From a virus: a stretch of 24,112 nt of DNA. The notes beneath the pieces are model-generated. The model was given only the letters and a program-made list of their open reading frames with translations, was not told where the DNA came from and did no database searches. Below, piece after piece: positions 6,298-18,257 of this stretch (positions within the stretch are counted from its first letter, which is position 1; each line of letters begins with the position of its first letter). A program made the translations under genes and the position numbers. The stretch covers positions 1 to 24,112 of IMG/VR virus record IMGVR_UViG_3300035034_002275, one strand, 5' to 3'.

Positions 6298-7762
6298 CCT
6301 GATCGAACTGCCGCAGGCCGGCGAGGAGCGCCCGGCGCACGCTACGCTCGGCGCGTCATCCTCCGAACGGTGGATAAACTGCGCGGGGTCCGTTCGCCTG
6401 TCGGAGGGCAAGGAAGACCGCCCGTCCGTCTACAAGCAGGAGGGCAGTGCGGCCCACGAGGTCGCGGCCCGGGCCCTGACGACGGGGCGCGACCCGGCCC
6501 TGTGGCTCGGCGCGCTGATCGAGGTTACGGACGGCGACGAGAAGTTCATGGTCGAGGTCACGGAGGAGATGACCGAGGCGGCCGATGTCTTCGTAAACTA
6601 TGTACGCTCCGTGATGGCGAAGCCCGGCGAGCGCGAACTGTTCGTGGAGACGCGCATCGACCTGTCGAAGCTGAACCCGCCCGCCCCGATGTACGGCAGG
6701 GCGGACGCGGGGATCGTGGTCCGGGTGCAGGGGAAGACCGCCATTGAGGTGGTCGATTTCAAGTACGGGCAGGGGAAGGTGGTCGAGGTCAAGGGGAACA
6801 GTCAGGGCCGGTACTACGCGCTCGGCTTCACTGTCGCGGCCGAGGTCAAGGCCGACCTTTACAAAGTGACCATCGTGCAGCCCCGGGCCGGGCACCCCGA
6901 CGGGCCTATCCGCTCCGAGACGTTTACGTGGGACGAGATGGTCGCGTTCAAGAATGAACTGTTCGCGGCGGCCACGGCCACGCAAGACCCGAACGCCCCG
7001 CTCATCCCGGGCGACTGGTGCGGGTTCTGCAAAGCGAAGGCAGTATGTCCGGCACTGAAAAAGCTGGCGGAGGAGACGGCGCGGACGGAGTTCTCCAACC
7101 TGCCGGTGGTGGCCGGCGATGAGACCGCGCCGCCCGCTCTCCCGGCCCCGGCCGAGCTTACCCCGGAGGAGCTCCGGGAGGTGATGGAGAAGGCCCACAT
7201 AATTACGGCGTGGATTACCGCGGTGCAGAGCTACGTGACGACGCTGACCGAGAGCGGCATGGACCTCGGGTACAAGCTGGTGCCGAAGCGCGGCACCCGG
7301 CGGTGGGTGGACGAGGACGCGACGGCCGAATGGCTGGAGCAGCACCTCGGGGACGCGGCGTACAAGCGCAAGCTCCGATCGCCGTACCAGTCGGAGCAGG
7401 CCCTCAAGCAGATCAACATGAACCTGCCCGATGAGATGTGGCAGACGGTCAGCAGTGGCACGAACCTCGTGCCCAACGATGACCCGCGGGAAGCGGTGCC
7501 GCCGCCCCTCGGAGCGGCGGACGAGTTCGAGGACTACCTGCCACTGGTCGAGGCGGAGTACACGCCCGACACGAAGAACGCCATCGGCGACCTCAGCGAG
7601 GGCGCGGTCGAACCCGAGTGGGCGGTCAGTTGCCACCGGGACGACCTGCGCGACCTGACGGTGCGGGCGGTGAACGAGACGGACGCACGGCGCGTGGCGC
7701 GGCTGCGGTGGGACGTGGGCCGACTTCCGAACAATACGAGCGTAACGAACGTAACGAAGTAA
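6290..7762 (+). CDS. DUF2800 RecB/Cas4-like PD-(D/E)XK nuclease
   Basis: A 490-residue protein of the phage DUF2800 family. The family signature HATLGASSSERWINCAGS is at residues 17-34, and YKQEGSAAHEVA includes H56. The nuclease core shows GRADAG with D139 and VVDFKYG with D156 and K158, the D...DxK arrangement of RecB-type nucleases. Cysteines C31, C244, C247 and C253 (in WCGFCKAKAVCP) match the one-plus-three layout that binds a 4Fe-4S cluster in AddB and Cas4. It probably resects or trims DNA ends in phage recombination. In known prophages this family sits next to a DUF2815 protein, as it does here. ATG 6290 has a good AGGGAGG site. The C-terminal 60 residues look divergent. Confidence 0.88.
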   Translation: MGDLIELPQAGEERPAHATLGASSSERWINCAGSVRLSEGKEDRPSVYKQEGSAAHEVAARALTTGRDPALWLGALIEVTDGDEKFMVEVTEEMTEAADVFVNYVRSVMAKPGERELFVETRIDLSKLNPPAPMYGRADAGIVVRVQGKTAIEVVDFKYGQGKVVEVKGNSQGRYYALGFTVAAEVKADLYKVTIVQPRAGHPDGPIRSETFTWDEMVAFKNELFAAATATQDPNAPLIPGDWCGFCKAKAVCPALKKLAEETARTEFSNLPVVAGDETAPPALPAPAELTPEELREVMEKAHIITAWITAVQSYVTTLTESGMDLGYKLVPKRGTRRWVDEDATAEWLEQHLGDAAYKRKLRSPYQSEQALKQINMNLPDEMWQTVSSGTNLVPNDDPREAVPPPLGAADEFEDYLPLVEAEYTPDTKNAIGDLSEGAVEPEWAVSCHRDDLRDLTVRAVNETDARRVARLRWDVGRLPNNTSVTNVTK

Positions 7763-7803
7763 AGGGCGTAGCCGCCGGCCCCGGTAAACGGGCGGCAGTC
7801 ATT

Positions 7804-7826
7804 GCGCGACGCATTAGACGACGCGC
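7804..7826 (+). promoter_or_regulatory. Hairpin upstream of the single-strand binding protein gene
   Basis: GCGCG (7804-7808) pairs with CGCGC (7822-7826), then an A-A mismatch and CG/CG close a CATTAGA loop. It lies in the 82-base gap after the DUF2800 gene, just before the GAGGAGACGGAG ribosome-binding region. No T-tract follows, so it is unlikely to terminate. It may stabilise or gate the message for the highly expressed binding protein; that is inference. Confidence 0.3.
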
Positions 7827-7844
7827 GAACGAGGAGACGGAGCA

Positions 7845-8477
7845 ATGGCGGAGCAGATCAAACGTAGGGTCATCACCCCGGAGTGCATGCTCTCGTACCC
7901 ACACCTGTACGAGCCGACCCGGTACGATGAGAAGGCCGCGCTGAAGTACTCCGTGGCGGCAGTGTTCCTGCCCGGCACGGACCTCACCGAGATGAAGAAA
8001 GCCATCGTCGAGGTGGGTGGCGCGAGGTGGAAGGACTTCGTGGCGGGCGTGAAGTCGGGCAAGTACCACTTCCCGTTCCATTCGGACCCGGAGATGATCG
8101 CCGGGAAGGGCTACCCCGAAGGGGCAGTCTACTTCAACGCTTCCTCGGACGGACAGCCCGGCGTGGTTACGCTGGTGCCCGATCCGGCCACCGGGAAGCC
8201 GATGACCGCGGAGCCGAGTCAGGTCTACCCGGGAGTTATCGCTCGTCTGAGCGTGACCTTCTACACGTTCCCGGCGGGCGACCGCAAGGGGAACCGCGGT
8301 GTGGGCGTGGGCCTGAACAACGTCCAGATCATCCGTGACGGCGAGCGGCTCGACGGGCGCATGGCGCCGGCCGATGAGTTCGACGCGGACCCGGACGCAG
8401 TGGCCGACCTGTCGGATCTGGAACCGACGGAGGCCGATGACGGCGGTGACGATGAGTTGCTGTCCGACCTGATGTAG
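7845..8477 (+). CDS. DUF2815 single-stranded DNA-binding protein
   Basis: A 210-residue protein of the DUF2815 family (RRVITPECMLSYPHLYEPT, then YSVAAVFLPG and the GVGLNNVQIIRDGERLDGR end of the core), which has the OB-fold of T7 gp2.5-like single-strand binding proteins. The core is followed by a strongly acidic tail from about residue 180 (DEFDADPDAVADLSDLEP onward, ending DDELLSDLM), the type of tail that recruits replication partners. It is expected to coat single-stranded DNA during replication and recombination with the neighbouring DUF2800 nuclease and polymerase. The start has GAGGAG at 7831-7836. A structured 158-base gap follows. Confidence 0.88.
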   Translation: MAEQIKRRVITPECMLSYPHLYEPTRYDEKAALKYSVAAVFLPGTDLTEMKKAIVEVGGARWKDFVAGVKSGKYHFPFHSDPEMIAGKGYPEGAVYFNASSDGQPGVVTLVPDPATGKPMTAEPSQVYPGVIARLSVTFYTFPAGDRKGNRGVGVGLNNVQIIRDGERLDGRMAPADEFDADPDAVADLSDLEPTEADDGGDDELLSDLM

Positions 8478-8484
8478 GCCCGCA

Positions 8485-8502
8485 GGCCCCCGTTTAGGGG
8501 CC
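8485..8502 (+). terminator. GC-rich stem-loop after the binding protein gene
   Basis: GGCCCC (8485-8490) and GGGGCC (8497-8502) form a perfect 6-bp stem with a CGTTTA loop, eight bases after the stop codon. A second small hairpin (GGCC-GAAC-GGCC, 8499-8510) overlaps it. There is no run of T, so termination would be weak. Protection of the upstream mRNA end or a spacer before the tmRNA-like RNA are alternatives. Confidence 0.35.
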
Positions 8503-8554
8503 GAACGGCCGGGGTGAGCGGGGGGTTAGTAAATTGGCCCCGCCACCCCAACTT

Positions 8555-8636
8555 GGGGGTGAAAAGGTGTTCGACGAGGAGAACCCGAAACAGGGAACTT
8601 GCTCGGACGGCAGTTCGATTCTGCCCACCTCCACTA
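8555..8636 (+). ncRNA. tmRNA-like tRNA-like domain without mRNA-like domain (mini-SsrA)
   Basis: Acceptor stem: GGGGGTG (8555-8561) pairs over all seven positions with CACCTCC (8626-8632), including G3-U70, the alanine identity pair. The discriminator is A (8633). The D-loop has GG and TTCGACG (8570-8576), starting at RNA position 16 as in E. coli tmRNA. CGGAC (8604-8608) directly precedes a canonical T arm: 5-bp stem GGCAG/CTGCC with loop TTCGATT. CGGAC before the T stem is a tmRNA hallmark. The rest of tmRNA (tag frame, pseudoknots, over 250 bases) is missing. A short helix fills the place of P2: CCGA/TCGG (8585-8588/8603-8606), then CAGG/CTTG on a GAA loop. CTA stands where CCA is expected, so CCA would have to be made by processing and addition. 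A tRNA is unlikely because no 5-7-5 anticodon arm exists. Confidence 0.75.
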
Positions 8637-10567
8637 TGAAACTGAATCTTGACTTCGAGACGCGGAGCCCGGTCGACCTCAAAGTGTGCGGCGCGCACGT
8701 CTATGCGGCGCACCCGGGGACCGAGATCCTCTGCATGGCGTGGGCCATCGGGGACGGGACGCCGCAGTTGTGGACTCCGGAGCAACATATCCCCTCCGCT
8801 ATTGCCGATACGGTAAGAGATCTGGAGGAGATCCGCGGCTGGAACGTCCAGTTCGAGCGGCTGATCTGGCGGCATATCCTCGGCCCGCGGCACGGCATGC
8901 CCGTGCCCGAGCTCGAACAGTACTACTGCACGATGGCCGAGGCCGCGGCGATGGCGCTGCCGCGCTCCCTCGGTAAGTGCGCGAAGGTGCTGAGCCTCCC
9001 GGTGGAGAAGGACGCGGAGGGCCGTAAGCTTATGCTCGCGATGGCCTCGCCCGGGAAGGACGGAACGTACCGGGACGAGCCCGGGGACCGGGAGCGCCTC
9101 GGCGAGTACTGCGTGCAGGACGTAGTTACGGAGAAGGCCGTGGCCGCTCGAGTCCTCCGACTGCCGCCGGGCGAGCGCGAGGTTTACGTGCTCGACCAAC
9201 GGATCAATGACCGGGGTATCCGGGTGGACGTGCCGCTCGTCAAGGCGGCGCGGAAGGCGGTGAAGGTCGCGGATAAGATCGGGAACGCTCGCCTCGCCGA
9301 GATTACGAACGGCGACGTGGAGAAGGCCACGCAGGTCCAGCGGATCAAGGCGTGGGTCGAGGACCGGATGGCGGTGGTGGACGGGTGGGGGATACCCGAT
9401 CTGACAAAGAACACCGTCAACGATTTGTTAGCTGGCGATGACCTACCGGACGACGTGCGGGAGGTGTTGGAGATCCGCCGGGACAACGGCCGCACCTCCA
9501 CCGGCAAGCTGCCGAAGATGATCCTCGGGCTGGTGCTCGACCGCCTGCAGGGGCTGCTCGGGTACCACGCCGCTTCGACGGGGCGGTGGGCGGGCTACCG
9601 GGTGCAGCCACAGAACTTCCCACGGCCCGGGTTCGACGCCCGGCCCTACATACCGGACGTCCTGAACGGCGACCTCGACATGATCCGGCTGGATCACGGC
9701 CTGATCGAGACGGTCAGCTTCATGCTGCGGAACATGCTGATACCGAGCGAAGGCTGCCGGTTCCTGTCGGGCGACTATGCACAGATTGAAGCTCGCATTG
9801 TCAATTGGTACGCGGGCGACATGTTTCAGGACAAGGCGTACGAGCGCATGGCCGGGACGATCTACGGCGTGCCGTGGGAGGAGGTCGGCAAGGAGGACCC
9901 GCGCCGGCAGATCGGGAAGAATACCGAGCTCGGCTGCGGGTTCGGGATGGGATGGGAGAAGTTCATCGACTACTGCTACAAGGCCACGGGCGAGCGTCCG
10001 CCGGAGGATCTGGCCCGCCGCGCCGTCGATGCGTACCGCGACAAGCACGCGAGGGTGAAGCAATCATGGTACGAGACGGAGCGCGCGGCCATGCGGGCCG
10101 TGCTCAACCCCGGCAGCGTGGAGTCCGTCGGCATCGGCGTGCAGGTCCGGTACGTCGTCCGCGGGCAGTACCTCTGGTGCCTGCTCCCGAGCGGGCGGCG
10201 GCTGGCGTACGCGCTCCCGGCGATCAAGATGCGGCCGACGCCGTGGGGCGAACAGCGGCCGAGCCTGACGTTTATGGGGACGACGGCGTACGTGCGTCGC
10301 TGGCACCGATACAATTCCTACGGGGGGATGCTGGTCGAGAACATCGTACAGGCGCTCGCCCGGGACGTTATGGTCCGCGGGATGAAGAACGTGGAGGCCG
10401 CTGGCTATCCGATCGTGCTGACCGTCCATGACGAAGTTCTCTCGGACGTTCCGCTCGACCACGGCTCGCTCGACGAGTACCTCCGATTGCTGACCACGGC
10501 GCCCGCGTGGGCCGAGGGACTGAACGTAGAAGTGGAGGGGTGGGAAGGCGATCGGTGGCGGAAGTGA
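8636..10567 (+). CDS. Family A DNA polymerase with 3'-5' exonuclease domain
   Basis: A 643-residue replicative polymerase. The DnaQ-like exonuclease comes first: LDFETRS with D6 and E8, WNVQFERLIW, and GEYCVQDVV. The polymerase domain has motif A SGDYAQIEAR (D380), motif B RRQIGKNTELGCGFGMG (R423/R424, K428) and motif C LTVHDEV (H598, D599, E600). No 5'-3' exonuclease domain is present, as in T7-like phage enzymes. I chose ATG 8636 because family members start just before LDFET. The open frame extends to a TTG at 8534 and contains GTG 8567, but that region is the tmRNA-like RNA. ATG 8636 has no Shine-Dalgarno sequence; the preceding CACCTCC is anti-SD-like. Confidence 0.92.
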   Translation: MKLNLDFETRSPVDLKVCGAHVYAAHPGTEILCMAWAIGDGTPQLWTPEQHIPSAIADTVRDLEEIRGWNVQFERLIWRHILGPRHGMPVPELEQYYCTMAEAAAMALPRSLGKCAKVLSLPVEKDAEGRKLMLAMASPGKDGTYRDEPGDRERLGEYCVQDVVTEKAVAARVLRLPPGEREVYVLDQRINDRGIRVDVPLVKAARKAVKVADKIGNARLAEITNGDVEKATQVQRIKAWVEDRMAVVDGWGIPDLTKNTVNDLLAGDDLPDDVREVLEIRRDNGRTSTGKLPKMILGLVLDRLQGLLGYHAASTGRWAGYRVQPQNFPRPGFDARPYIPDVLNGDLDMIRLDHGLIETVSFMLRNMLIPSEGCRFLSGDYAQIEARIVNWYAGDMFQDKAYERMAGTIYGVPWEEVGKEDPRRQIGKNTELGCGFGMGWEKFIDYCYKATGERPPEDLARRAVDAYRDKHARVKQSWYETERAAMRAVLNPGSVESVGIGVQVRYVVRGQYLWCLLPSGRRLAYALPAIKMRPTPWGEQRPSLTFMGTTAYVRRWHRYNSYGGMLVENIVQALARDVMVRGMKNVEAAGYPIVLTVHDEVLSDVPLDHGSLDEYLRLLTTAPAWAEGLNVEVEGWEGDRWRK

Positions 10568-13838: not shown

Positions 13839-16800
13839 TCAGCCCTGCGGGCGCCTGTCGCGGAACCGTTGGCTCAGTAAACCGGCCGCCGCGGTGGGCG
13901 CCGCGAGCGGACCAAGCTGGAAGAACCCGAGGTCACGAGCGTCGTCCAGAGTCAGACGCCGCTGCGAACGGACCTCCGGTCGCGGGAACATGACCTGAGC
14001 CCCCGACTTTCCTGTCATCACCTCGCTCCGAGGAACCTCCAACTGAAACAGTCCGTACGGTGAATCCCTCATGGCCGCCTCGAACCTCTCCGGGCCGAGG
14101 TAGTTATTAGGCCGCTCCCTTAGCCCGCGGTGGGTCGCTGCGTCCGGGAACCCAAATATCATCCCGCCGCCGTAGGGATCCGCATGGCGCCCACTGAACC
14201 GCTCGGGGAAGTCCATTGACGGGCCGGGCACCATCAGGGTCGGAGCGGTGAGGGCGGCCTGATCGGCGCCCGCGCGCGGTCCCTGAAACGGCCCGCGCCC
14301 GGAGCCCGGATCCTCCACCCGGAACACGCTCCGCAGATCGTCCGCGGGCGCCATCGCGCCCTCCGGTAGCCGGTCGAGCACGCCAAGGCGCTCCCCGAGG
14401 GCCCGGGCGTGCGTCGGCCCGATCTGTGTAAACTGAGTGAACCGATCGAACATCTCCGGCGTCATGCTCGGGTTCTCGTGCAGGAAGCGGACCGACCCCT
14501 GCAGGCCGAGCCGGCTGGACTCTAACGCACGCTTCACGTCGGGCCCGACGCCCGCCATCCGCAGGGCGTCGTCCACCACGCGCCCCCAACCTCGGCCGCC
14601 CGGCAGAGCGGCGGCGCCGCCCGCTACGAGCATGCCCTCCTCACTACCGGATTCCGTCGCACCGAGCCCCGCGGCCACCGCGCCGAGGCCGAACAGCGCA
14701 CGTCGCTGCGCCACGCGATCGAGCCGCGCGGTCAGACCGAAGATGTCGGCCTCCCGGATCTGGCTCGGGTCGTAGTTCGCGAGACGCTCCGGGTCGGCCG
14801 GGACGAGCGGGGCGACTTCGATATTCACCTCGCGCAGCATGGCCGCGTTCTCCGGCTCGTTCAGGAGCGTGGCGAAGCTCGGGGCCTCCCCGATCTCCTG
14901 CCGTAGCTGGTTGAACGTGGGCGTACCACCCCCGTGCGCGGTCGTGCTCGACCCGAGGAGTTCCGCCGCCCGCGCTTCGAGCGTCTGGCCTCGTGCGAGC
15001 GGCTGCTCGCGGAGGTGCTTGATGACGCCCCACCGCATCGCCTGTACGTTCGACACGTCAACGGGCTGCCCCGTCATCTCGCTGAGGCGCGCGGCCGTCC
15101 GCCGGTAAGAGGGCGTCATGCCGAGCACGGCGATGTTGTCCACGCGGCGCGCGCGAACGCCGGGCGTTACCGGCCCGCCCCCCGCCCCCGCAAACTCGTG
15201 CGTGTCGATCACCGGGCGCGTCCGCACCCGGCCCTCCATCGAGCCGAGGATCGTCGCGTCCAGCAGGTTCGCGCCGAACGGATCGACCTTCACCCCGCTC
15301 AGGACACCCTGCGTGTTGCTCATGGCCGCTGCGCGCCGGCCGCCCGAGGCCGTCGGCTGTGGGGCGAACTGCCCTGCCGCCAGCAGGCGCCGGGAGATCA
15401 GGTCGTCGACGGGCGTGGTCAGCGCGGTGATCGCGTTGTTCGTCGTCGCACTCGGGAGGAGCTCCGTGCCCGCCGCGTCGACGATCTTACGGATAGCCTC
15501 CGGGCCCGTCGGTCTGCCGGCCTGCACCCAATCTCTCCAGATTTGGATCGCGCCCTTCGCGTTGCCCTCGATCGAGGTGCGCGGACTGCCGGCGGCCGCC
15601 ATCCATGCGAACCGGACCGCATCGTCCTCGCCGAAGGTCCGCAGGATCGTGTCCGCGCTCGAACGGTACCAAGCGTCGAGCTCCGCCCCGAGGAGAGCTT
15701 GGCTCGCCATCTCGCGCTCACCCGGCATGAGGCTCGCGATGTGCAGCGCCTCCTCGGCCCGGTGAGGGTTGTCCTGTTCCATCCGCAGGAACATACGTCG
15801 CTCGGGCGGGGTGAGGTCTTCGAGGAACTGCTCGCGGTGCGCGACGGCGCGCTCGGGCACGACCTTGTTGAGCTCCGCCCGGTAGAGCGCCTGCTCCGTC
15901 ATCGCCTCACCGGCCGTGACCGGGGGGCGCCCGGGGCCCGCGCCCTGCGCCGCTCGGGGCGTCGGGACCGGGGCGGACTTGAACTCGGGGTGCGCGAGGT
16001 TCAGGATGCTGTACTGATTGTTCTCGATCCCGTACTGGATCGCAGCGTCCTGATCGTCGAACGTCTTCGTAAGGTTGATCTCATGGCCGGAGCCTGTCGA
16101 GGTATCCGCGCCGCTCGCCGTACCGATCCTCAGATCGGGGTCGGCCCGTAGAGCGGCCTGCACCTCGGGGTCATCGATGAACGCACGGATGTCAGCCTCG
16201 GTGAAAGGCTCCTCCTGAATCCTCGGCGGGATGAGGTCCTCGGCCGCGACGGCCCACAGATCTTCGCCCGCGAGGGTCTCGCCGGTACGGGGGTCGATGG
16301 TGCTGCCGCCGTAATTGCTGTGACCTTCAAAGACGCCGCGCGTTGCCGGGGCCGGGTCGATAGGCCGCGCGCGAGCTTCCGCACCGGCCCCGCGCCGCAG
16401 GTCCGTAGCGGCGAGGAACGCCTGCTCCTGTGCGTCCGAGATCGGGCCCTCGCCCCTCCGCGCACGATCCGCGTTGATGCGGTCAAGGCGCTCGCGGTGG
16501 GGCCCGTCGATCGGGGGGCGCTCGGCCGCGGCCCTGCGGAGCTCCTCCGCGTCCACGGGGTACGGACCTTTCGAGTAAAACTCGGCCCATTCCGACAGAG
16601 GAGCGTCCGGGGCGGGCCGCTGGTCGCGCAACGCCTCGCGCCGGGCGGCAACGTCGGCCATCGCCGCGTCCGCCTGAGCGGGCGTGACCATCCCCAACTG
16701 CTCGGACTCGTCCGCGCCAAACCGGCGTCCCGTATTCTCGCGGTTGAGGAACACGCCTTCCGGCGTACCGTCGTCCACGATGAAGCCCGCGGTCATATCT

Positions 16801-18257
16801 TCCAGCGGCATGTCGCGAGTGATTTTCCCGTCCTCCAGCGCCTTCATCTCCACGTTCATGTGCATCGGGTCGCCCCGGAGGATCTCGCCACTCTCCAGCC
16901 GGTAGGCGGCCTCTAGCGGCTTCTCCCCGGGCCGTACCGGGGGTAGATCGGGCATGGGCTCGGGAGCGGTACGCGGGTCGATGTAGTTGCCCATGTCGTC
17001 CACGGCGCTCGCCCCGCCCGGGAGCCCCTCAGCGTCCGCGCGCTGGCGCAGGAACGCGAGCTCGTCGCCGGTGAGGTTGGGATCAACCGGAGCGCCCTGC
17101 TCCGAGGCGAACTTGTGGATCTTGTCGTCCGCCGCCCTCACGGCGTCGTCCACCACTTCCGGGTTGACGGCGTTCCCCTGCAACAACGCCCGAGCTTCGT
17201 CGCTCGTACGCGCCACGCCCTGATCGGCCTCGGCGATGATGCTGGACTCACCACGCTTCACGCCCACCACCTTCGCGGCCTGCGCTCGGGTATGGGCCGT
17301 ACCGGCCGCCAGATTGTAGGCCCCGCCGCCCGCGTGGGAGAACTCGTCGAGCGCGCTCTCTACGTGGATGTTGCCGAGGCGGTTGCGCACCCCCGGCTCC
17401 TCGATGTTCGCCAACCAGTGCGAGCGCCCCGTGGGGACGAACACACCGCGCGCCTCATCGAACCACCCGGGCAGCATGGTGTGGCCCTGCTCGACCAGCC
17501 TCAAGACCTCGGCCCGCGCCGTCGGGGTGATGCTCGTCAGATCGAGCTTGGCGAGCGTGCCGATTTTCCGCGCGGCGGCGATCGGAATGAGGGCCGCACC
17601 GAGCATCGCGTCGATCCCACCCTCGAACAGGCCGCGCTGTAGCGGCGAGGCGTCAGGACCGAGGAACGAGAACTCGGGCACCGTGGCGCCGATACCCCCG
17701 GACAGGAGGGCGGGGCCGGCTACCGGGCCGCCCATGTTAGCGGCGGCACCGTAGCCACCGAACAGCGTAGCGCCCGTACCGAGGACGCGCCCGGTCATCG
17801 CCGCGCCCGGGTGCCGTGCCTCGATCTGCGTCAGCGGACGGTTGAAGGTCTCCTCGCCGAGACGCTCTGCGGCGCCCTTGGCGCCCGCCATGTCGAGGAG
17901 CCCCGCTACGGGGCGTGCGACCTCCAGCGGCCCGCGGAGCATCCCCACGGCCGTCGCCCGCGCCGCGTCCGAGTTGCCGGAGATGATACCGTCCCGGGTC
18001 GTCTCCATCGTCGCGTCGAGCAGCCCACGGGCCGCGCCCTCAAACTGATCCCGGTGACCACTGCGGCGACGGCGGTCTATGTTCCGGTCGAAGTCGAGGC
18101 GCTGGTTCTGAGTGCGCGACTTCACCACCGACCGGAGCGACTCCAGCCCGTGAACCCCCGGCACGTTTGCCTGTAAGATGAGCGCGTTGATCCGGCCGAG
18201 CGAAGTGCCGGAGGTCTCCAGCATCTCCATCGCGCGTAACAGTTCCTCTGGATTCAT
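13839..18257 (-). CDS. Giant virion/ejection-type protein (1472 residues)
   Basis: The last gene of the minus-strand operon, starting in an ATGA overlap with the neck protein gene. The N-terminus (NPEELLRAMEML, then INALILQANVPGVHGLESL) resembles that of the 551-residue protein upstream. Gly/Ala-rich, weakly hydrophobic stretches (residues about 145-200) and a long charged, Pro-rich middle follow. Residues roughly 880-1000 (VRFAWMAAAGSPRTSIEGNA, GAIQIWRDWVQAGRPTGPEA, GVKVDPFGANLLD) are reminiscent of a conserved DUF7178-like module in large phage proteins, but that match is tentative. A Gly/Ala-rich segment near 1200 (ALFGLGAVAAGLGA) could insert in membranes. Length, position and composition fit an internal ejection protein that enters the cell with the DNA. 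No catalytic motif is secure. Confidence 0.7.
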   Translation of the reverse strand: MNPEELLRAMEMLETSGTSLGRINALILQANVPGVHGLESLRSVVKSRTQNQRLDFDRNIDRRRRSGHRDQFEGAARGLLDATMETTRDGIISGNSDAARATAVGMLRGPLEVARPVAGLLDMAGAKGAAERLGEETFNRPLTQIEARHPGAAMTGRVLGTGATLFGGYGAAANMGGPVAGPALLSGGIGATVPEFSFLGPDASPLQRGLFEGGIDAMLGAALIPIAAARKIGTLAKLDLTSITPTARAEVLRLVEQGHTMLPGWFDEARGVFVPTGRSHWLANIEEPGVRNRLGNIHVESALDEFSHAGGGAYNLAAGTAHTRAQAAKVVGVKRGESSIIAEADQGVARTSDEARALLQGNAVNPEVVDDAVRAADDKIHKFASEQGAPVDPNLTGDELAFLRQRADAEGLPGGASAVDDMGNYIDPRTAPEPMPDLPPVRPGEKPLEAAYRLESGEILRGDPMHMNVEMKALEDGKITRDMPLEDMTAGFIVDDGTPEGVFLNRENTGRRFGADESEQLGMVTPAQADAAMADVAARREALRDQRPAPDAPLSEWAEFYSKGPYPVDAEELRRAAAERPPIDGPHRERLDRINADRARRGEGPISDAQEQAFLAATDLRRGAGAEARARPIDPAPATRGVFEGHSNYGGSTIDPRTGETLAGEDLWAVAAEDLIPPRIQEEPFTEADIRAFIDDPEVQAALRADPDLRIGTASGADTSTGSGHEINLTKTFDDQDAAIQYGIENNQYSILNLAHPEFKSAPVPTPRAAQGAGPGRPPVTAGEAMTEQALYRAELNKVVPERAVAHREQFLEDLTPPERRMFLRMEQDNPHRAEEALHIASLMPGEREMASQALLGAELDAWYRSSADTILRTFGEDDAVRFAWMAAAGSPRTSIEGNAKGAIQIWRDWVQAGRPTGPEAIRKIVDAAGTELLPSATTNNAITALTTPVDDLISRRLLAAGQFAPQPTASGGRRAAAMSNTQGVLSGVKVDPFGANLLDATILGSMEGRVRTRPVIDTHEFAGAGGGPVTPGVRARRVDNIAVLGMTPSYRRTAARLSEMTGQPVDVSNVQAMRWGVIKHLREQPLARGQTLEARAAELLGSSTTAHGGGTPTFNQLRQEIGEAPSFATLLNEPENAAMLREVNIEVAPLVPADPERLANYDPSQIREADIFGLTARLDRVAQRRALFGLGAVAAGLGATESGSEEGMLVAGGAAALPGGRGWGRVVDDALRMAGVGPDVKRALESSRLGLQGSVRFLHENPSMTPEMFDRFTQFTQIGPTHARALGERLGVLDRLPEGAMAPADDLRSVFRVEDPGSGRGPFQGPRAGADQAALTAPTLMVPGPSMDFPERFSGRHADPYGGGMIFGFPDAATHRGLRERPNNYLGPERFEAAMRDSPYGLFQLEVPRSEVMTGKSGAQVMFPRPEVRSQRRLTLDDARDLGFFQLGPLAAPTAAAGLLSQRFRDRRPQG

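Follow-up and report, generated by a model that had tools for sequence, protein, structure and literature searches.

A phage RNA that retains the tRNA-like domain of tmRNA without the mRNA-like domain, a member of a conserved viral family and a candidate decoy against ribosome rescue

The DNA analysed (the window) is the 24,112-nucleotide stretch formed by positions 1 to 24,112 of IMG/VR record IMGVR_UViG_3300035034_002275. Within this 24.1-kb virus record, an 82-base element on the plus strand was found to lie between the genes of an ssDNA-binding protein and a DNA polymerase, with the following features:

7845..8477 (+): gene for a Gp2.5/Enc34-like ssDNA-binding protein, upstream (phrog_112, E 7.9e-33; PF10991)
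8555..8636 (+): gene for a tmRNA-like RNA consisting of the tRNA-like domain (TLD) only (RF00023, 56.4 bits; family model R1, 49.8 bits)
8555..8561 (+): acceptor 5' strand GGGGGUG, with G3 at 8557 (7/7 pairs with 8626-8632)
8570..8576 (+): D-loop-like UUCGACG, element positions 16-22 (UUCGAC kept in family alignments; R1 match)
8576..8604 (+): short arm replacing the mRNA-like domain (sequence read directly; family covariation)
8604..8608 (+): CGGAC, element positions 50-54, directly 5' of the T arm (GGAC invariant in alignment A1)
8609..8625 (+): T arm GGCAG-UUCGAUU-CUGCC, with loop UUCGAUU (5/5 pairs)
8626..8633 (+): acceptor 3' strand CACCUCC, with U70 at 8630, and discriminator A (direct reading; 38/38 viral elements)
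8636..10567 (+): DNA polymerase (polA) gene, downstream (phrog_17, E 1.3e-99; translation MKLNLDFETRS from 8636)

The element begins 77 bases 3' of the ssDNA-binding protein gene and its last base is the first base of the polA ATG (CUAUG). Homology of the polymerase to phrog_17 starts at residue 33 of an ORF opened at 8534, and there is no Shine-Dalgarno-like sequence ahead of the polA ATG (8626-8640). Neither a sigma-70-type promoter nor a terminator was found at positions 7700-8800, and no integrase was identified among the window ORFs scanned. Elsewhere in the window, a 1,472-aa ORF on the minus strand (13839-18257) lies beside virion genes and has no Pfam or PHROG match.

The element extends for 79 bases up to discriminator A79 (8633) and for 82 bases with the encoded CUA (8634-8636). 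A preliminary description made from the sequence had proposed that it keeps the tRNA-like domain of tmRNA and has lost the mRNA-like domain, pointing to a 7/7 acceptor stem with G3-U70, TTCGACG at positions 16-22, CGGAC before a perfect T arm and a discriminator A. Each of these features was found on direct reading, with both elements of alanine identity, G3.U70 (8557/8630) and the discriminator A, present. A covariance search (cmscan) then returned the tmRNA model RF00023 as the sole Rfam match anywhere in the window, with a score above the gathering cut-off of 47 bits (E 6.8e-20) and an alignment covering both ends of the model (positions 1-374), 312 middle positions being deleted. The mRNA-like domain with its resume codon and tag frame is absent from the element, and so are pseudoknots PK1-PK4, as only 29 bases separate UUCGAC and GGAC. 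In their place is a short arm, composed of an outer stem (GAGGAG/CUUGCUC, six pairs with one bulged G) and an inner hairpin (CCC-GAAACA-GGG). The window element was thus confirmed to be the tRNA-like domain of tmRNA without the mRNA-like domain.

Other classes of RNA were also considered. A permuted tmRNA was rejected, the order of the parts being acceptor 5' strand, arm, T arm and acceptor 3' strand. The anticodon arm and canonical D arm of a tRNA are absent from the element, and no tRNA-family match was obtained in the window with Rfam or ARAGORN; the latter program, which the preliminary description had proposed as a check, called neither a tRNA nor a tmRNA on the element. The folding energy gave a z-score of -3.05 against dinucleotide shuffles. 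The minimum-energy fold of the single sequence, however, pairs GUUCGA with the CUCGGAC region, unlike the tRNA-like fold, and the latter therefore rests on comparison and not on energy.

To collect relatives, viral and bacterial collections were searched with a pattern containing UUCGAC, GGAC and the T loop only, and elements were selected by the pairing of T stem and arm alone, that is, blind to the acceptor. Using this approach, 38 of 112 distinct viral matches qualified, and a 7/7 acceptor, G3.U70 and A73 were present in all 38; from bacteria, one of 118 matches qualified, and its acceptor pairs in 3/7 positions. The alanine determinants noted in the preliminary description are consequently kept without exception in this viral set. 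Two stricter patterns followed, both of which already included U70-C71-C72, and for this reason the invariance of G3.U70 rests on the acceptor-blind set of 38.

Complete scans identified 104 contigs with the CCGCAYGCGG form of the inner hairpin and 61 contigs with a UUCAA T loop, while the general form of the stricter pattern was present in at least 119 contigs. As approximately 24 of the UUCAA contigs are among these 119 listed matches, compared with 61 in all, the family total can be placed at roughly 300 IMG/VR contigs, which is a crude estimate. In total, 157 distinct elements were collected from 222 loci (nearly all viral), all with a 7/7 acceptor and a 5/5 T stem, and RF00023 matched in 46 of 47 related records. 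The elements range from 66 to 98 bases in length (mostly 78-85), with an arm of 26-34 bases in most members and an encoded CCA in about a third (49/157). Length variants are of two kinds. At 92-98 bases, L248:2907-2998, L254:11908-12005 and L276:11235-11332 carry a longer inner arm that differs from the usual one; at 66 bases, L255:298-363, L266:1041-1106 and L294:7797-7862 have a greatly shortened arm that lacks the inner hairpin. One record (G017) carries two short elements of slightly different sequence (L264, L300). BLAST of the window element among phages gave matches to its 3' half only, and an exact search with the 22 bases of its 5' end gave no match. Several candidates were rejected: L136, L138, L148 and L124-L127 are parts of full-length or permuted tmRNAs, L402 fails the acceptor test, and an ARAGORN tmRNA call with an implausible tag (L019:2976-3318) was judged likely to be false, its locus holding a short element.

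The general pattern imposed no pairing, and yet a 7/7 acceptor was present in 136 of 140 distinct matches, a 5/5 T stem in 139 of 140, and at least five of the six basal pairs of the arm in 127 of 140, compared with 6% in mispaired controls. Because the family pairs throughout under a pattern of this kind, chance can be excluded for the window element. The preliminary description had also looked to related phages for the same short element with compensatory stem changes, and such changes are found. Alignment A4 consists of 80 distinct rows; 96.8% of its cells pair, and changes on both sides occur in 19 of 22 pairs. Its covariation score is 0.731, whereas shuffled alignments reach 0.145 +/- 0.009 and slid partners no more than 0.113. 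Covariation occurs in acceptor pairs 4-7, the outer arm stem, the inner hairpin and the T stem (the latter with 100% of cells paired), while acceptor pairs 1-3 (G1-C72, G2-C71 and G3.U70) are invariant. Since the fit of A4 followed the model structure and a few tRNA matches are among its rows, the pairing test on the 140 matches is the cleaner of the two. Another alignment, A1, was kept out of the covariation analysis, its acceptor being misregistered. UUCGAC is conserved across the family alignments. A GCN codon with an in-frame stop was present in 51 of 136 family members, compared with 40.7 +/- 4.8 in shuffled sequences, an excess of about two standard deviations which is not zero but is too weak to argue convincingly for a hidden mini tag frame.

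The short element is nearly confined to phages. Two pattern matches were found in 1,053 genomes from three bacterial classes, one of which was rejected on the acceptor test. The other, a true element (L401/L403), lies 13 bases 3' of a tRNA-Phe within a prophage, surrounded by integrase, terminase, portal and capsid genes. Plasmids gave no match for three family members; an R1 search of 45 bacterial genomes was also empty, and as it had no positive control it is not counted as evidence. Among isolated phages, the element fills a gap in the tRNA array of Streptomyces phage Shaeky, four bases past the annotated end of tRNA-Phe, and is located between tRNA-Val and tRNA-Ser in Streptomyces phages GiJojo, LuckySocke and pSt2308, upstream of the capsid gene in Pontimonas phage phiPsal1 and upstream of the primase in Stenotrophomonas phage Jojan60. 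None of these six phages has a tmRNA annotated at the element. In GiJojo (L396:5999-6241) the annotation places a hypothetical protein, gene 44, across the RNA; this gene is probably spurious. As for the neighbourhood of polA itself, viral relatives of the window polymerase (L123-L127) carry permuted, full-length-type tmRNA genes approximately 0.4-1.5 kb 3' of polA, so that tmRNA-type genes seem to have a recurrent home near polA.

The location of the elements bears on what they may do. One explanation is that they act in cis, as RNase P/RNase Z punctuation that processes an operon or controls the next gene. The window element abuts the polA start, so that the polA message would be left with almost no leader if the 3' end of the RNA were trimmed, and many other elements are closely followed by an ORF, the commonest downstream families being capsid and DnaB-like or primase proteins. 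The neighbours nevertheless vary widely, with the proteins downstream of 57 loci falling into 43 clusters (the two largest having eight and seven members), some elements lie within tRNA arrays, and processing enzymes have no need of G3.U70; a role in cis is thus considered quite unlikely. The lack of a fixed neighbour gene argues instead for action in trans.

It was also suggested in the preliminary description that the element could be left over from integration in ssrA. In support of a relic or attachment site of this kind, or of a decaying tmRNA, a tyrosine integrase is encoded within approximately 2 kb of the element in five records (G031, G032, G034, G037 and G040) and, farther away, in the region of the L403 prophage. 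However, while eight of the 47 larger records have a tyrosine integrase (PF00589), 39 have no match, in a search that covered the tyrosine family and not the serine integrases, one of which is present in Shaeky. The window element is located between the ssDNA-binding protein and polA genes, and it is a complete domain, whereas att copies retain just the 3' part of ssrA. Covariation and invariant identity pairs are not shown by relics either, and this origin appears highly improbable.

Phage tRNA arrays are often linked to tRNA-cutting defences. Given that elements share the location of large phage tRNA arrays, they could act as a bait or sponge outside ribosome rescue, the host enzymes concerned being either tRNA- or tmRNA-cutting defence nucleases or alanyl-tRNA synthetase (AlaRS). 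The element has no anticodon arm, which is the usual target of such nucleases, and it keeps the tmRNA-specific UUCGAC and GGAC, neither of which would be needed by a plain tRNA-Ala minihelix sponge, so that this function has little probability.

The RNA keeps the features that AlaRS, EF-Tu and SmpB recognise on tmRNA, with no template. The reading that we favour, with a probability of roughly 0.6, is that of a trans-acting, alanylated tRNA-like-domain RNA that would compete with the tmRNA of the host, both for SmpB and EF-Tu and for stalled ribosomes. The RNA would be transcribed inside a phage operon or tRNA array and trimmed like a tRNA, as the position of some elements in tRNA arrays suggests, the host adding CCA where it is not encoded. 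Host AlaRS would then charge it with alanine by way of G3.U70, and host SmpB and EF-Tu would bind the charged RNA. None of 47 element-carrying records yielded an SmpB gene, in a search whose positive controls were detected, and any SmpB partner would therefore be that of the host. The RNA would go on to compete with host tmRNA for SmpB and stalled ribosomes and, having no resume codon or tag frame, rescue and degradation tagging would be blocked or diverted during infection.

Competition with host tmRNA would be the simplest mechanism. One report (PMC4131195, citing Mao 2009) states that tmRNA is strongly inhibited by a molecule similar to the RNA of mycobacteriophage DS6A, in chargeable and unchargeable form alike, and that titration of SmpB may be the cause. 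This points in the direction of the decoy suggested in the preliminary description, with which the present findings are consistent. Since the inhibitor described there needs no charging, the absolute conservation of G3.U70 suggests a role that includes alanylation, for example in EF-Tu delivery to stalled ribosomes; simple SmpB titration leaves this conservation unexplained, which hints at something more. It may be that the charged RNA is a mimic, alanylated and delivered with SmpB and EF-Tu, whose missing message would produce a dead-end complex with the inner hairpin as a working part, an elaboration that differs from passive titration of SmpB and to which we give somewhat less than an even chance. 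Under this reading, many phages across host phyla would target trans-translation by means of an RNA.

Some phages carry a full-length tmRNA, and one record (L039, G005) has a full-length tmRNA match (77588-77979, 94 bits) together with a short element (46486-46567). The apparent presence of both in one phage fits less well with a plain block of trans-translation. It would be more in keeping with a tag-less rescue RNA, which with SmpB would add alanine to stalled chains and free ribosomes while leaving phage proteins unmarked for proteolysis, and the strict G3.U70 and A73, implying that charging matters beyond SmpB titration, also speak for such a factor. As there is no template, however, the ribosome would have nothing to resume on, and the similar molecule described in PMC4131195 inhibits tmRNA, so that a rescue function is rather unlikely.

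If the competition with host tmRNA proposed here is correct, ribosome rescue would be commonly manipulated by phages. An alanine signal strictly kept in an RNA that is unable to tag leads to a clear prediction, and it is one that the isolated carriers LuckySocke, Shaeky, phiPsal1 and Jojan60 make testable.

With regard to known systems, the window element shares with the standard one-piece tmRNA (RF00023) the acceptor G3.U70, UUCGAC, GGAC, T arm and discriminator A in the same 5'-to-3' order, and the short elements differ from it in lacking the mRNA-like domain, tag frame and pseudoknots. The permuted two-piece tmRNAs (RF04321, RF01849) are also phage-borne, including in relatives of the window DNA polymerase, but are permuted with a full mRNA-like piece, whereas the window element is unpermuted. 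The tag reading frame has also been lost naturally from the CDS-less plastid tmRNAs of Mallomonadaceae (two sequences of about 65 bp; PMC11915505), which are organellar and shorter and are likened here by description. The preliminary description knew of no phage RNA of this kind; this does not hold, as the 'TLD only' tmRNA of mycobacteriophage DS6A has been described (tmRNA Website tmID 11587; PMC4131195, PMC11915505), a phage RNA with little beyond the tRNA-like domain of tmRNA and no tag reading frame. The window element is likewise phage-encoded and a tRNA-like domain alone, the likeness being one of description and not of sequence, and the single reported case contrasts with the 157 distinct sequences collected here. 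No description of a broad phage family of such RNAs was found in the literature searched, in which few subscription papers were covered, and the short elements are usually unannotated and missed by ARAGORN. While the kind was therefore already known, merely as a remark on one mycobacteriophage, its breadth, conserved inner hairpin and strict alanine determinant look new, and the elements form a large conserved class of phage RNA present in Streptomyces, Pontimonas and Stenotrophomonas phages and in many uncultured viruses.
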